The notes beneath the pieces are model-generated. The model had not been told where the DNA came from and made no database searches. It saw only the letters and a program-made list of their open reading frames with translations. Shown here piece after piece: positions 2,788 to 25,821 of a DNA stretch of 35,058 nt (the stretch's first letter is position 1; the number at the start of each line of letters is the position of its first letter). Position numbers and translations under genes: made by a program. Origin of the DNA: Jiangella ureilytica (GTDB lineage Bacteria; Actinomycetota; Actinomycetes; Jiangellales; Jiangellaceae); NCBI RefSeq assembly GCF_004348545.1, contig NZ_SMKL01000064.1, positions 1 to 35,058 on the forward strand. The letters run 5' to 3'.

Positions 2788-2806
2788 GATCTCCTCCTCC
2801 GCTCCA

Positions 2807-2848
2807 TCAATATTGACGACAATGATAGATATATTGATTTCCATCAAT
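2807..2848. promoter_or_regulatory. AT-rich operator region between the divergent citrate synthases
   Basis: In otherwise GC-rich DNA this stretch is AT-rich and full of ATTG/CAAT arms. TCAATATTGA (2807-2816) is a perfect 10-bp palindrome, ATTG-N4-CAAT lies at 2812-2823, and ATTGAT-TTCC-ATCAAT (2833-2848) is a perfect inverted repeat. It must contain both divergent promoters. The obvious candidate ligand is the helix-turn-helix domain of the plus-strand citrate synthase; this is inference. Confidence 0.6.
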
Positions 2849-2868
2849 GTCGACCGTGAGGACGCGCG

Positions 2869-4305
2869 ATGGCCCAGAAGCGCCGGCTGACGACGCAGCA
2901 GGTCGCCGCCCGTCTGGGCGTGAAGCCCGAGACGGTGTACGCGTACGTCAGCCGCGGCCTGCTCGGCAGCCGCCGCGGGCCGGGCGGCCGGGCCAGCACC
3001 TTCGACCCCGACGAGGTGGAGCGGCTCGCGCACCGGCGACGGGGTCAGCCCGGCGGCCCGGCGCCGAGCGCGCAGGACGCGGCCGGGCCGGTGTACAGCT
3101 CGGTCACGCTCATCGAGGGCGACGCCTACCACTACCGCGGGGTCGACGCGATCGCGCTGTCGCGGCGGTACGGCTTCGACGAGGTCGCCTGGTGGTTGTG
3201 GACCGGCGTCCTCGTGCCCGGTGTCGTCTTCACCGCGCCGGACAGCGCACTGGCCGCCGCCCGCGCCGCCGGCGCCGCACTCCCGCCGCAGGCCGGGCTG
3301 GTCGACCGGCTCCGCGTGGCGGCCGTCGCGGCCGCGACGGTCGACCCGGTCCGGTTCGACCTGCGCCCGCACACGGTGGCAGCCACCGCTCGCGGCCTCA
3401 TCGCCACCTTCGTCGACTCCCTTCCCCGCGACGATCCCCGCACGATCGGCGCCGGTGCCTTCGACCGCGGCGCCTCCCGCGCGGACGGCGGGCGCCTCGG
3501 GGACCGGGGCGGAACCGGTGCCCCCGGCAGCGCGGGCGACGCGGGCAGCGCGGGCGACGCGGGCAGCGCGGGCGACGCGGGCAGCGCGGGCAGCGCGAAC
3601 CTCGCCACACTCGGGAGCGAGCGCCGTACGCCACTGACCAGCGAGAGCATCGCCGCGCGGCTGTGGGCGCGGCTGACCGCCCGCCCGGCCGATGCGGACA
3701 CCGTCGCGATCCTCGACACGGCGCTGGTCCTGCTCGCCGACCACGGGCTGGCCGCGTCGACCGTCACCGCGCGGACGGCGGCGTCGGCGCGGGCACATCC
3801 GTACGCCGTCGTGTCGGCGGCGCTCGGGACGCTCGAGGGGCCGCTGCACGGGGCCGCGAGCGGCCTGGCCCACCGCATGCTCACCGACGTACTCGAGCGG
3901 GGCGCGGGGCCGGTCGTCGCCGAGCATCTGCGGGCGGGGCGGCGGCTGCCCGGCCTGGGGCACCGGCTCTACCGCGAGTCCGACCCGCGGGCACAGGTCC
4001 TGCTCGGCCTGCTGGCGGGCGTCCCCGAGGCGGCGCCCGTGCTGGCCGCCGCGCACGCGGTCACCGAGACGGCGGCCACCCACCTGCCGCTGCCGGCGAA
4101 CATCGACCTCGCACTGGCGACGCTGTCCGTGGCGACCGGGATGCCGCCGGATGCCGGCGAGACGATCTTCGCGGTCGCGCGGACCGCGGGCTGGATCGCG
4201 CATGCGCTCGAGGAGTACGACGAGCGGGCGTTGCGGGTCCGGGTCACCGGACGGTACGAGGGGCCGCCGCCGCCCCAGCCACTGCCGGAGCCGTCAGCCG
4301 GCTGA
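2869..4305 (+). CDS. Citrate synthase with N-terminal MerR-like helix-turn-helix
   Basis: A 478-residue fusion. Residues 1-50 read as a MerR/excisionase-type helix-turn-helix (TTQQVAARLGVKPETVYAYV, then a basic wing). Residues from about 70 onward are a citrate synthase with His327 (GPLHGA), His365 (PGLGHRLYR) and Asp413 (NIDLAL) all present, so it may be enzymatically active. A low-complexity insert at about 205-245 contains tandem GSAGDA units. The start follows a GAGGA site about 8 bases upstream. Its position next to an AT-rich palindromic region shared with the other citrate synthase gene suggests a regulator or regulator-enzyme that senses acyl-CoA or oxaloacetate; this is inferred. The stop lies in an 18-bp palindrome shared with the convergent HxlR gene. 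Confidence 0.85.
   Translation: MAQKRRLTTQQVAARLGVKPETVYAYVSRGLLGSRRGPGGRASTFDPDEVERLAHRRRGQPGGPAPSAQDAAGPVYSSVTLIEGDAYHYRGVDAIALSRRYGFDEVAWWLWTGVLVPGVVFTAPDSALAAARAAGAALPPQAGLVDRLRVAAVAAATVDPVRFDLRPHTVAATARGLIATFVDSLPRDDPRTIGAGAFDRGASRADGGRLGDRGGTGAPGSAGDAGSAGDAGSAGDAGSAGSANLATLGSERRTPLTSESIAARLWARLTARPADADTVAILDTALVLLADHGLAASTVTARTAASARAHPYAVVSAALGTLEGPLHGAASGLAHRMLTDVLERGAGPVVAEHLRAGRRLPGLGHRLYRESDPRAQVLLGLLAGVPEAAPVLAAAHAVTETAATHLPLPANIDLALATLSVATGMPPDAGETIFAVARTAGWIAHALEEYDERALRVRVTGRYEGPPPPQPLPEPSAG
3523..3594 (+). repeat. 18-bp tandem repeat, four copies, within the citrate synthase fusion
   Basis: Unit GCGGGCAGCGCGGGCGAC is exact at 3541-3558 and 3559-3576, with slightly degenerate copies at 3523-3540 and 3577-3594. 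It encodes a Gly-Ser-Ala-Gly-Asp-Ala linker. The 18-bp unit keeps frame, so copy number could vary without breaking the gene. Confidence 0.9.
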
Positions 4306-4308
4306 CGG
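4291..4308. terminator. Shared palindrome containing both convergent stop codons
   Basis: CCGTCAGCCGGCTGACGG is a perfect 18-bp palindrome (7-bp stem with a CCGG loop as RNA). It contains the TGA of the plus-strand citrate synthase (4303-4305) and the TGA of the minus-strand HxlR gene (4296-4294). It probably acts as a compact bidirectional terminator; no U-tract is present. Confidence 0.5.
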
Positions 4309-4668
4309 CGACGCCGCCGGCTCGGGCGGCAGGTGCTTCACGGCCCAGGCGGAGATCTCGTCGAGGGCGGGCATCAGGGCCTCGCCGCGCTCGGTGAGCG
4401 CGTAGGAGACCGAGACCGGCGGCCCCGCGTCGACGCTGCGGCGCACGAGGTCGTTCTGGGTGAGCTCGGCCAGCCGGTCGGCCAGGACGGAGTCGCTGAC
4501 GCCGTCGATGGCGCGGGACAGCTCGCGGAACCCGGCGGGACCACCCCGCAGGCTGCCCAGGACCAGTGCGTTCCAGCGCTTGCCGAGGATGTGGAACGCC
4601 CGGCTGAGCGCCTCGTCGACGCGCAGGCAGCCGTCCATGTCGGGCGTGGTGCGAACGCTGCCTGCCAT
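4294..4668 (-). CDS. HxlR-family transcriptional regulator
   Basis: A 124-residue winged-helix protein of the HxlR family (YodB/HypR-like regulators, often thiol- or quinone-responsive). Visible features are an N-terminal Cys (DGCLRVDEAL), the family block ILGKRWNALVLGSLRGGPAGFRELSR with variations, VSDSVLADRLAEL as the recognition region, and a wing VSVSYALTERGEAL. The Cys near residue 13 is the one that acts as redox sensor in several family members. The start at 4668 is supported by a TAGTAT -10 box ending seven bases before the ATG, which implies a leaderless transcript. It is divergent from an FAD oxidoreductase, the usual arrangement for local control of a redox enzyme. Its end overlaps the convergent citrate synthase by 12 bp. 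Confidence 0.85.
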   Translation of the reverse strand: MAGSVRTTPDMDGCLRVDEALSRAFHILGKRWNALVLGSLRGGPAGFRELSRAIDGVSDSVLADRLAELTQNDLVRRSVDAGPPVSVSYALTERGEALMPALDEISAWAVKHLPPEPAASPSAG

Positions 4669-4695
4669 GCCCGGAATACTAGCGCGACCGTTGTT

Positions 4696-4712
4696 GCTTC
4701 GTTTTTCGAAGC
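4696..4712. promoter_or_regulatory. Inverted repeat, candidate HxlR operator
   Basis: GCTTCG-TTTTT-CGAAGC is a perfect 6-5-6 inverted repeat in the 89-bp gap between the divergent HxlR and oxidoreductase genes. It lies between a TTGTTG (4691-4696) and a TATGAG (4716-4721) that could form the oxidoreductase promoter with a 19-bp spacer, so binding would block it. Confidence 0.5.
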
Positions 4713-4757
4713 CGCTATGAGACAGCTCGTAGCTTCTACTCTCCAAGGAGAACGTCA

Positions 4758-23744: not shown

Positions 23745-24475
23745 GGGGCGCGCTCCTTCGTGAGCTCGGCCGCGGCCGGTCCGCCCGAGCCGATGCTGAC
23801 GCCGTCGTCGCCGGCGATGCGGCCGTCGCGCATACGCACGACGCGGGAGGCGCCGGCCGCGACGTCGGCGGAGTGCGTGACCATGAGGATGGTCTGGCCG
23901 TCGCCGTGCAGCCGGCGGAACAGCTCCAGGATCTCCGCGCCGCCCTCGCTGTCGAGGGCGCCGGTGGGCTCGTCGGCCAGCAGCACCGCCGGCTCGTTGA
24001 CCAGTGCGCGGGCGATGGCCAGCCGCTGGCGCTGCCCGCCCGAGAGCACCGACGGCACCTGCTCGGTGCGGTCGCCGAGGCCCAGCAGGTCGAGCAGGTC
24101 GCGGGCGCGCGACTCGGCGGCCTTGCGGCGCAGCCCGCCCAGGATGGCCGGCAGCGCGATGTTGTCCAGCGCCGAGACGCCCTCGAGCAGGTTGAAGAAC
24201 TGGAAGACGATGCCGACGTGGTGCCGGCGGAACCGGGCCAGCCAGTTCTCGTCGCGGCCGCTGACGACGAGGTCGTCGACCACGACCTCGCCCTCGTCGG
24301 CCTGGTCGAGCCCGGCGAAGATGTTCAGCAGAGTCGACTTGCCGCAGCCCGACGGGCCCATGAGCGCGACGAACTCGCCCCGCTCCACCTGTAGATCGAC
24401 GCCGCGCAGGGCGCGGACGGGCGCGAGCTCCGCCTCGAAGGTGCGGCGGACTCCCCGGGCCAGCAGTGCGGTCAT
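23741..24475 (-). CDS. ABC transporter ATPase (MacB/LolD type)
   Basis: A 244-residue nucleotide-binding protein with Walker A GPSGCGKST (40-48), a Q-loop in FQFFNL (about 97), signature LSGGQRQR, Walker B VLLADEPTGALD with catalytic Glu, and H-loop VTHS. The sequence class (DEPTGALD, QFFNLL) is that of MacB/LolD/FtsE-like ATPases that power FtsX-type permeases. Its start overlaps the cyclase stop by ATGA, and its stop overlaps the permease 4 GTG. As the only ATPase in the operon it probably energises all four permeases, possibly as alternative complexes. Confidence 0.92.
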   Translation of the reverse strand: MTALLARGVRRTFEAELAPVRALRGVDLQVERGEFVALMGPSGCGKSTLLNIFAGLDQADEGEVVVDDLVVSGRDENWLARFRRHHVGIVFQFFNLLEGVSALDNIALPAILGGLRRKAAESRARDLLDLLGLGDRTEQVPSVLSGGQRQRLAIARALVNEPAVLLADEPTGALDSEGGAEILELFRRLHGDGQTILMVTHSADVAAGASRVVRMRDGRIAGDDGVSIGSGGPAAAELTKERAP

Positions 24476-25821
24476 CGGCTGTACTCCTCAACCTCGTCGG
24501 GCGCGGGCGCGGGCGCGATCACCCGGCACGCCGTCACGGCGGCGTCGCGGCCCTTGACCCGGACCGGGTCGAGCCGCTGGAACGTCCAGGCCGGCGCGGC
24601 CGCCGCGGTCGCCTCGCTGACCACCGTCGAACCGGCGGGGCGGGCGAGGTCCTGCAGGCGCTGCGCCATGTTCACGGTGTCGCCGACGAGCGTGTACTCC
24701 AGCCGCTCGTCGCTGCCGAGCAGGGCGGCCGCGACCTCGCCCGTGGACAGGCCGATGCCCATGCCGAACGGCTCCAGTCCCTCGGTCGTCCACTGCGCGT
24801 CGACGCCGGTCTGCCGCCGGTGCATGTCGGCGGCGGCACGCAGCGCCCGCTCGGCGTGGTCGGCCTGCGGGAACGGCGCTCCGAAGACGGCCATGACGGC
24901 GTCCCCCACGTACTGCATCACGGTGCCCCCCTGGTCGAGGATGGCACCGTTCATGGCCCGGCGGTGCGCATTCAGCTGTCTCGCCAGGATCGACGGGTCG
25001 GTCCGCTCGGCGATGCCGGAGTAGCCGCGCACGTCCGACATGAGCACCGTGACGACGAGCCGATCGGTGCGGGCGACCGCGCCGGGGTCGTCGCGCAGCT
25101 TCTCCGCCAGCCCCGACGGCAGCAGCCGGGTCAGCGTCTCGCCCTGCTCCTCGCGCTCGAGGATGGCGGTGTGCAGCTTGCGCAGCCGTTCCAGCGCGCC
25201 GCGGACGCCGGAGCTGGCGTCGCGGGCGAGGTGCAGGAACAGGTCCTCGACGGCGTGGTCGACGGCTTCCGGTGTGCTCTGCAGGCTCGCGGCGATGGCC
25301 TTCACGGCGCGCCCTTCGGCGACCATGGTGAGCAGCCGCTCCTCGTCCGCCGACAGTCCGGTGCCGAGCCGCGCCGGGGTCACGAGTGCCTGGACGATCT
25401 CAGGGTCGAGCATGGAACCCCCCGCCGCGACCTCGCGGACCGCCCGGGCCAGCCGGTCGCCGTCCGCCACCCGCTCCTTGAGCAAGTATGCGTAGCCGGC
25501 CGCCCCCTGGGCCAGCAGCGCGACCGCGTACTCCGGGTCGTCGTACTGCGACAGCACCACGACCCCCGTTCCCGGAAGACGCTTGCGGACCTCCTTGGCG
25601 GCCTCGATCCCCTCGTTGGCGAACCGGGGCGGCATCCGGATGTCGGTCACGACGACCTGCGGCCGGTGCTCCTGCGCCTGGGTCACCAGGCTGTCGTAGT
25701 CCTCGGCCATCGCGACGACGTCGAAGTCGCCGGCGATGCGCAGCAACGCCCGCACGCCCTCACGGACGAGCAGGTTGTCGTCCGCGAGGAGCACGGTGAT
25801 GCGTGCGTCGGCCGAGGTCAT
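24472..25821 (-). CDS. Response regulator-class III adenylate/guanylate cyclase fusion
   Basis: A 449-residue three-part protein: receiver (1-140; Asp14-Asp15, phosphoacceptor Asp60, Lys115), a degenerate GerE-like helix-turn-helix (about 156-200) and a class III nucleotide cyclase (about 255-445). Metal-binding Asp263 (LMSDVRGYS) and Asp307 (VGDAVMAVFGAP), transition-state Asn384 and Arg388 (VGDTVNMAQRL) are present. Thr377 occupies the base-recognition Asp position, as known for class IIIb cyclases. The usual Lys before the second metal Asp is Gln303, so activity or substrate may differ. It is the first gene of a nine-gene operon, preceded by a regulon palindrome centred 67.5 bp upstream. 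I infer that phosphorylation by the operon's kinases controls cyclic nucleotide output. Confidence 0.9.
   Translation of the reverse strand: MTSADARITVLLADDNLLVREGVRALLRIAGDFDVVAMAEDYDSLVTQAQEHRPQVVVTDIRMPPRFANEGIEAAKEVRKRLPGTGVVVLSQYDDPEYAVALLAQGAAGYAYLLKERVADGDRLARAVREVAAGGSMLDPEIVQALVTPARLGTGLSADEERLLTMVAEGRAVKAIAASLQSTPEAVDHAVEDLFLHLARDASSGVRGALERLRKLHTAILEREEQGETLTRLLPSGLAEKLRDDPGAVARTDRLVVTVLMSDVRGYSGIAERTDPSILARQLNAHRRAMNGAILDQGGTVMQYVGDAVMAVFGAPFPQADHAERALRAAADMHRRQTGVDAQWTTEGLEPFGMGIGLSTGEVAAALLGSDERLEYTLVGDTVNMAQRLQDLARPAGSTVVSEATAAAAPAWTFQRLDPVRVKGRDAAVTACRVIAPAPAPDEVEEYSR

Follow-up and report, generated by a model that had tools for sequence, protein, structure and literature searches.

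Why would a citrate synthase begin with a DNA-binding domain and face a second citrate synthase across a short AT-rich gap? We addressed this question for a locus of Jiangella ureilytica, contained in a stretch of 35,058 nucleotides (the window) that is one whole contig (C129, NZ_SMKL01000064.1) of a 6.35 Mb genome, 99.97% complete, with four citrate synthase genes. An earlier note on this DNA had described a plus-strand enzyme with a MerR-like helix-turn-helix (HTH) and all three catalytic residues, separated from a divergent citrate synthase by a strikingly AT-rich gap with at least three ATTG/CAAT inverted repeats, and had read the arrangement as an enzyme that senses its own substrate pool and controls a citrate or methylcitrate branch point. 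The layout is as described. The HTH–citrate synthase fusion (HTH-CS, 478 aa) lies at 2869 to 4305 on the plus strand, the second citrate synthase (383 aa) lies at 1636 to 2787 on the minus strand, and the bounds of the two open reading frames leave a shared intergenic region of 81 bp (2788 to 2868), a putative control region. The 3′ end of an HxlR-type regulator gene (4294 to 4746, minus strand) shares 12 bases with the stop end of HTH-CS, and the window also holds, at 24472 to 25821 on the minus strand, an adenylate/guanylate cyclase domain fused to a response regulator receiver. From the comparisons presented here, we give a probability of about 0.8 to the reading that HTH-CS is a local autoregulator derived from a citrate synthase, which would bind the palindromic element in this gap and control it.

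Both halves of HTH-CS are recognized by Pfam. Residues 7–57 (2887 to 3039, plus strand) match HTH_17 with an E-value of 3.4e-8 (34 bits, cut-off 27) and MerR_1 with 28.5 bits (cut-off 21.6), which places the domain among the MerR-type HTHs, and a narrower MerR model reaches 25.3 bits, below its cut-off of 28.2. Compared with PDB sequences, the HTH alone gave weak matches at most (best E-value 0.11). The Citrate_synt profile (PF00285) matches with 198 bits against a cut-off of 27, and the AF2 model (mean pLDDT 87.2, pTM 0.81) agrees with this family assignment in fold: residues 65–458 superpose on 1a59 (Z 36.9, rmsd 2.7, 328 aligned) and on PrpC, 6s6f (Z 36.5, rmsd 3.0, 326 aligned). The operator of MerR-type regulators sits in a promoter spacer elongated to 19 bp, and these proteins carry a C-terminal coiled coil; in the HTH-CS model, the HTH (helices 9–16 and 20–28, strand 43–45, helix 47–58) is followed by the citrate synthase core (residues 65–460; 3061 to 4248, plus strand). 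The sole longer stretch with a pLDDT below 50 is a low-complexity insert in the core at residues 198–229 (3460 to 3555, plus strand), and a repetitive Gly/Ser/Ala/Asp insert can be followed in the window from 3460 to 3620. The total length of HTH-CS ranges from 415 to 554 aa across the complete genus members. The three catalytic residues, mapped on E. coli GltA, are all present as H327, H365, and D413, and the core also has the ligand arginines R374, R438, and R458. Sequence and model thus combine a DNA-binding domain and an intact active site in one chain.

The divergent citrate synthase matches NF009005 with 332.7 bits, against a cut-off of 332, and resembles B. subtilis CitA. Its nearest solved relative is 2c6x, which we take to be that protein and which shares an Asp-to-Glu change at the catalytic site; both read NVEF, and Glu occupies the catalytic Asp position in 30/30 of the partners that were extracted. 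The earlier note does not mention this substitution.

The gap between the two genes is as AT-rich as the earlier note had claimed, with a GC content of 46.9% vs 74.2% for the window, and its 47-bp core (29.8% GC) is the minimum over all 47-mers of the window. ATTG starts at 2812 and 2833 and CAAT at 2808, 2820, and 2845; together these form three inverted pairs. TCAA/TTGA inverted repeats are found in the same 81 bp. Motif searches resolved a left element, TCAATATTGA, which is a perfect palindrome (2807 to 2816), and a right element, TTGATTTCCATCAA (2834 to 2847). The window has one copy of TTGANNNNNNTCAA (mean of 0.00 in 100 shuffles) and one copy of TCAANNTTGA (shuffle mean 0.04, with one copy reached in 4/100). 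When up to one mismatch was allowed, the right element in the form TTGATTTNNRTCAAT had a single match in the 6.35 Mb genome, namely in this gap. The shorter pattern TCAAYRTTGA occurs at three places in the genome: in the gap, inside a 23S rRNA, and in a repeat-like stretch on contig C86, where reading of the site revealed no clear gene start beside it. A regulon beyond the locus was considered and rejected, as motif searches over the whole genome gave no second convincing element site.

As a check on its reading, the earlier note had named conservation of the repeats upstream of orthologous pairs. We scored the element as TCAA-NN-TTGA or TTGA-N4-9-TCAA within 300 bp upstream of HTH-CS in four sets: 52 loci from 51 class genomes, 12 added later, 80 named ones, and 20 that belong to the class of Devosia. 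The class genomes with HTH-CS number 64, of which 51 were taken first and 13 later, with G163 left out (its match lies at a contig edge, short of the HTH). The named loci, for which the search started from the motif T[LV]Y[AS]YVSRG, are the best 80 of 595 confirmed stretches; their HTH conservation is in part a product of that choice, and some species may occur in both the named and the unnamed sets. We ourselves labelled genus g24 Streptomyces-like and assigned the class of Devosia to the Alphaproteobacteria. The element was found upstream in 157/164 HTH-CS loci, a set that includes the best 80 of 595 motif-seeded stretches, with 51/52, 11/12, 76/80 (the best 80 of 595), and 19/20 in the respective sets; the loci that lack it are L061, L102, L121, L150, L180, L193, and L205. 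Element-bearing loci come from Actinobacteria, Alphaproteobacteria, and single loci of Gemmatimonadetes and Dormibacteraeota, and the named holders of HTH-CS (among the best 80 of 595) include Streptomyces, Kribbella, Actinomycetospora, Nonomuraea, Actinomadura, Devosia, Nitrospirillum, a Gemmatimonadetes bin, and a Dormibacteraeota bin. The outcome of the check is strongly positive, and conservation of the element reaches well past the genus and into several phyla, an observation that the earlier note had understated.

The count holds up when related proteins are clustered, with the element in 71/76 clusters at 70% identity and 33/36 at 50% (144 proteins). In the upstream 250 bp of the first loci, TTGA-N4-8-TCAA occurred in 51/52, against a mean of 0.32 and a maximum of 2 in dinucleotide shuffles, and a coding-region control gave 0/52. 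Eight loci of other citrate synthase genes of the genus, searched over the whole 3.6–4 kb of each, contained 0 elements. The N-terminus of HTH-CS is present in 12/12 genus genomes and in 64/393 class genomes. In the class of Devosia, TCAANNTTGA is found in 19/20 loci and a divergent citrate synthase in 13/20.

Across the relatives, the usual form of the element is TCAA-YR-TTGA-TT-N3/4-TCAA. The central dinucleotide is TA, TG, CG, or CA in 111/115 sites of the two larger sets, which include the best 80 of 595, and the third half-site follows at a spacing of 5 or 6 in 91/101 sites (range 5 to 9, sets again including the best 80 of 595); because this spacing varies, the seat of one dimer on the site is ambiguous. 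Within the genus, TAGATATRTTGAT-N5-TCAA is present in 12/12 gaps and the left element reads TCAA-N3-TTGA in most relatives, and the usual TCAAYRTTGA beside the right element has a degenerate left half (GATATATTGA). As a specific marker, TCAAYRTTGAN{5,8}TCAA was rejected: it matches at least 126 of the 393 class genomes, many of them small ones without HTH-CS, and, among the matches listed, it misses 12/12 genus genomes owing to that degenerate half.

The two genes travel together. With thresholds of E ≤ 1e-8 for HTH-CS and E ≤ 1e-110 for the partner, which leave more distant partners uncounted, 54 of the 393 class genomes have both genes, 10 have HTH-CS alone, and one has the partner alone (Fisher p 7e-55, a value overstated since the genomes are related). 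The two genes lie 70–368 bp apart in 48/50 pairs whose coordinates were compared. Of the 33 HTH-CS loci that have no adjacent divergent citrate synthase, 29 nonetheless carry the element, and at 17 of the 33 (L087, L088, L090, L116–L120, L123–L127, L129, L143, L147, and L160) a divergent open reading frame starts like a DRE-TIM acyltransferase (DVTNRDGVQTARTG or close to it), in genera that include Nonomuraea, Actinomadura, Asanoa, and Dactylosporangium. The DRE-TIM acyltransferase family joins acyl-CoA to a 2-oxoacid. The one such neighbour that was scanned scored best with NifV-type homocitrate synthase, at 232 bits and below the cut-off of 462.9, and by sequence these neighbours might be Re-type citrate or homocitrate synthases. 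At the Gemmatimonadetes locus L179, a citrate synthase is preceded by a leuB-type dehydrogenase.

Exceptions to the pairing were also seen. Two genomes of the Streptomyces-like genus, G039 (L102) and G127 (L061), have neither the element nor a partner at the threshold, and their HTH-CS genes are possibly decaying or rewired copies. G213 has an extra complete copy of the citrate synthase, 19 kb from HTH-CS, which carries an identical 19-bp element and is not adjoined by an HTH-CS. A phage-type integrase (PF00589) is found near this extra copy (L199, G213:C53:671500-678500). The divergent gene is split or rearranged in some Streptomyces-type genomes (L199, and also L100, L106, L175, and L182); G213 and G117 retain only ~37 codons of its start next to HTH-CS, with the remainder more than 100 kb off. 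Integrative elements may use the divergent citrate synthase gene as a site of insertion.

An orthologous pair appears to be present in a model organism. According to the accessible text of PMC12323332, there are four genes for citrate synthases in S. coelicolor, a site for MtrA lies between SCO5831 and SCO5832 (citA3/citA4), and MtrA lowers both genes late in growth, when both are higher in the mtrA mutant. SCO5831 is described there and in the accessible parts of three other papers as a putative citrate synthase or citrate-synthase-like protein, which has been detected, at higher levels under phosphate proficiency (PMC12323332, PMC9739823, PMC7324645, PMC8981147). We found the published MtrA site in 1/392 genomes of the Streptomyces-like genus (L115), at distances of 92 bp to the HTH-CS start and 16 bp to the start of the divergent gene, the same as in the accessible table of PMC12323332. 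From this match, we infer that SCO5831 is HTH-CS and SCO5832 its partner. The accessible parts of the published accounts make no mention of an HTH, of self-control, or of a palindromic element for this pair, and no report of an HTH–citrate synthase fusion or its self-control was found in the literature searched, which covers few subscription journals. The pairing of HTH and citrate synthase domains is probably visible in public domain databases.

The residues of the active site were surveyed in the 144 long enough proteins from the first 152 HTH-CS loci. All three catalytic residues are present in 129/144, and a catalytic His or Asp was scored as missing in 15/144, in one case through truncation at a contig end. 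In genus g67 (L078, L080, L081, and L082), the second catalytic His is gone (GLGM, GLGA, or GVGI), and the arginines and the element are retained. R314, R387, and R407 of E. coli citrate synthase are its carboxylate-binding arginines; in E. coli numbering, R314 and R387 are found in 76/76 and R407 in 75/76 HTH-CS proteins from the best 80 of 595.

These residues bear on the question of whether HTH-CS still makes citrate. It is possible, if rather doubtful, that HTH-CS is a pseudo-enzyme, which binds oxaloacetate or acyl-CoA, makes no citrate, and regulates the true enzyme adjoining it. The near-complete retention of the arginines fits such a protein, as do the replacement of Asn by Ala in the DHEQNAST motif of 48/49 HTH-CS proteins and a score below the NCBIfam citrate and methylcitrate synthase equivalog cut-offs (the best, TIGR01800, gives 143.3 bits against a curated 421.3). 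The element is kept at 10 of the 14 loci that remain altered once the truncation is removed, which suggests that regulation may outlive catalysis. However, the intact triad of the 129 other proteins argues for catalysis, two of the 14 altered proteins (L107 and L205) align poorly at the site, and the element is absent more often with altered (4/14) than with intact (2/129) proteins, a difference with a Fisher p of 0.0008 that is uncorrected for phylogeny.

Two other explanations would leave HTH-CS out of the control of the gap altogether. The right element is an exact TTGAT-N4-ATCAA, the consensus of FNR/ANR, and might simply be a box of the CRP/FNR family with HTH-CS as a mere bystander. We consider this very improbable: a CRP/FNR dimer needs a fixed spacing, but the TTGA–TCAA spacing of 5 to 9 in the relatives corresponds to N3 to N7 in FNR terms, and the many sites expected of a global regulator contrast with the single one in the genome of the window. 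It is likewise improbable, if a shade less so, that the HTH is vestigial, that the gap is run only by global regulators (MtrA, GlnR, DasR, or CRP), and that HTH-CS is an ordinary extra citrate synthase. The effect of MtrA on both S. coelicolor genes is in line with such control, and the accessible part of a review reports negative control of citA and citA4 by GlnR in S. erythraea (PMC10704036). Yet the MtrA site, in another position and of another sequence, is not the source of the palindromes: in L115, the conserved element lies between it and the HTH-CS start, 18 bp from the MtrA site. The HTH is also intact in HTH-CS loci that were found by similarity rather than picked by motif, and the element accompanies HTH-CS across phyla.

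Under the preferred reading of a local autoregulator, HTH-CS, as a citrate synthase oligomer, would place its N-terminal HTHs on the TCAA/TTGA half-sites of the gap and control the divergent citrate-forming enzyme as well as its own gene. The citrate synthase core keeps a pocket for oxaloacetate and acyl-CoA, which is the likely sensor, and binding or turnover of substrate would alter DNA binding. Since the median distance from the centre of the element to the HTH-CS start downstream of it is 38 bp, the most likely sign of control would be repression that is relieved by ligand. We favour, with some reserve, ligand sensing by the citrate synthase pocket, and suppose the core to be an enzyme pocket used as a sensor that is usually still an enzyme. 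The enzyme and sensor half of the earlier reading is plausible, given the catalytic residues in 129/144 proteins and the arginines in nearly all. Control of the gap by HTH-CS, also part of that reading, is strongly supported at the sequence level by the 157/164 loci in several phyla, the unique right element, and the co-occurrence of the pair. The methylcitrate branch found no support: there is no prp-type gene among the open reading frames of the window that were scanned, which are a part of all of them. More tentatively, and at somewhat less than even odds, the locus may represent an ancient, multi-phylum switch, based on a catalytically active citrate synthase whose own pocket would sense oxaloacetate and acyl-CoA and which would adjust how much of a second citrate-forming enzyme is made; either a Si-type citrate synthase or an unrelated DRE-TIM enzyme (homocitrate/isopropylmalate synthase type) could take the place of the partner.

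Trigger enzymes and enzyme-derived regulators include PutA, BirA, NadR, and GabR/MocR. Like these, HTH-CS combines an enzyme, or the fold of one, with a DNA-binding domain and would act on its own locus; unlike these, the fold is citrate synthase, the neighbour is another citrate synthase, and HTH-CS is known from sequence. Caulobacter CitA is also a citrate synthase with a regulatory role, which is independent of catalysis and acts on the cell cycle, but the accessible text mentions no DNA-binding domain of a citrate synthase (PMC7083601). In the same text, citB and citC have adjacent locus tags, and E. coli gltA is complemented by CitB and not by CitC (PMC7083601).

Our results suggest that a metabolic enzyme fold has become a genetic switch that governs the formation of citrate. 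The TCA cycle is entered through citrate synthase, and according to the accessible text of PMC12323332 the division of work among the four genes of S. coelicolor is unclear. If the reading holds, the enzyme itself would have given rise to a transcription factor that senses this entry step directly and in a self-contained way, in a model organism; the citrate synthase fold would join the enzyme folds that have been turned into regulators, and HTH-CS might serve as a biosensor for oxaloacetate or acyl-CoA.
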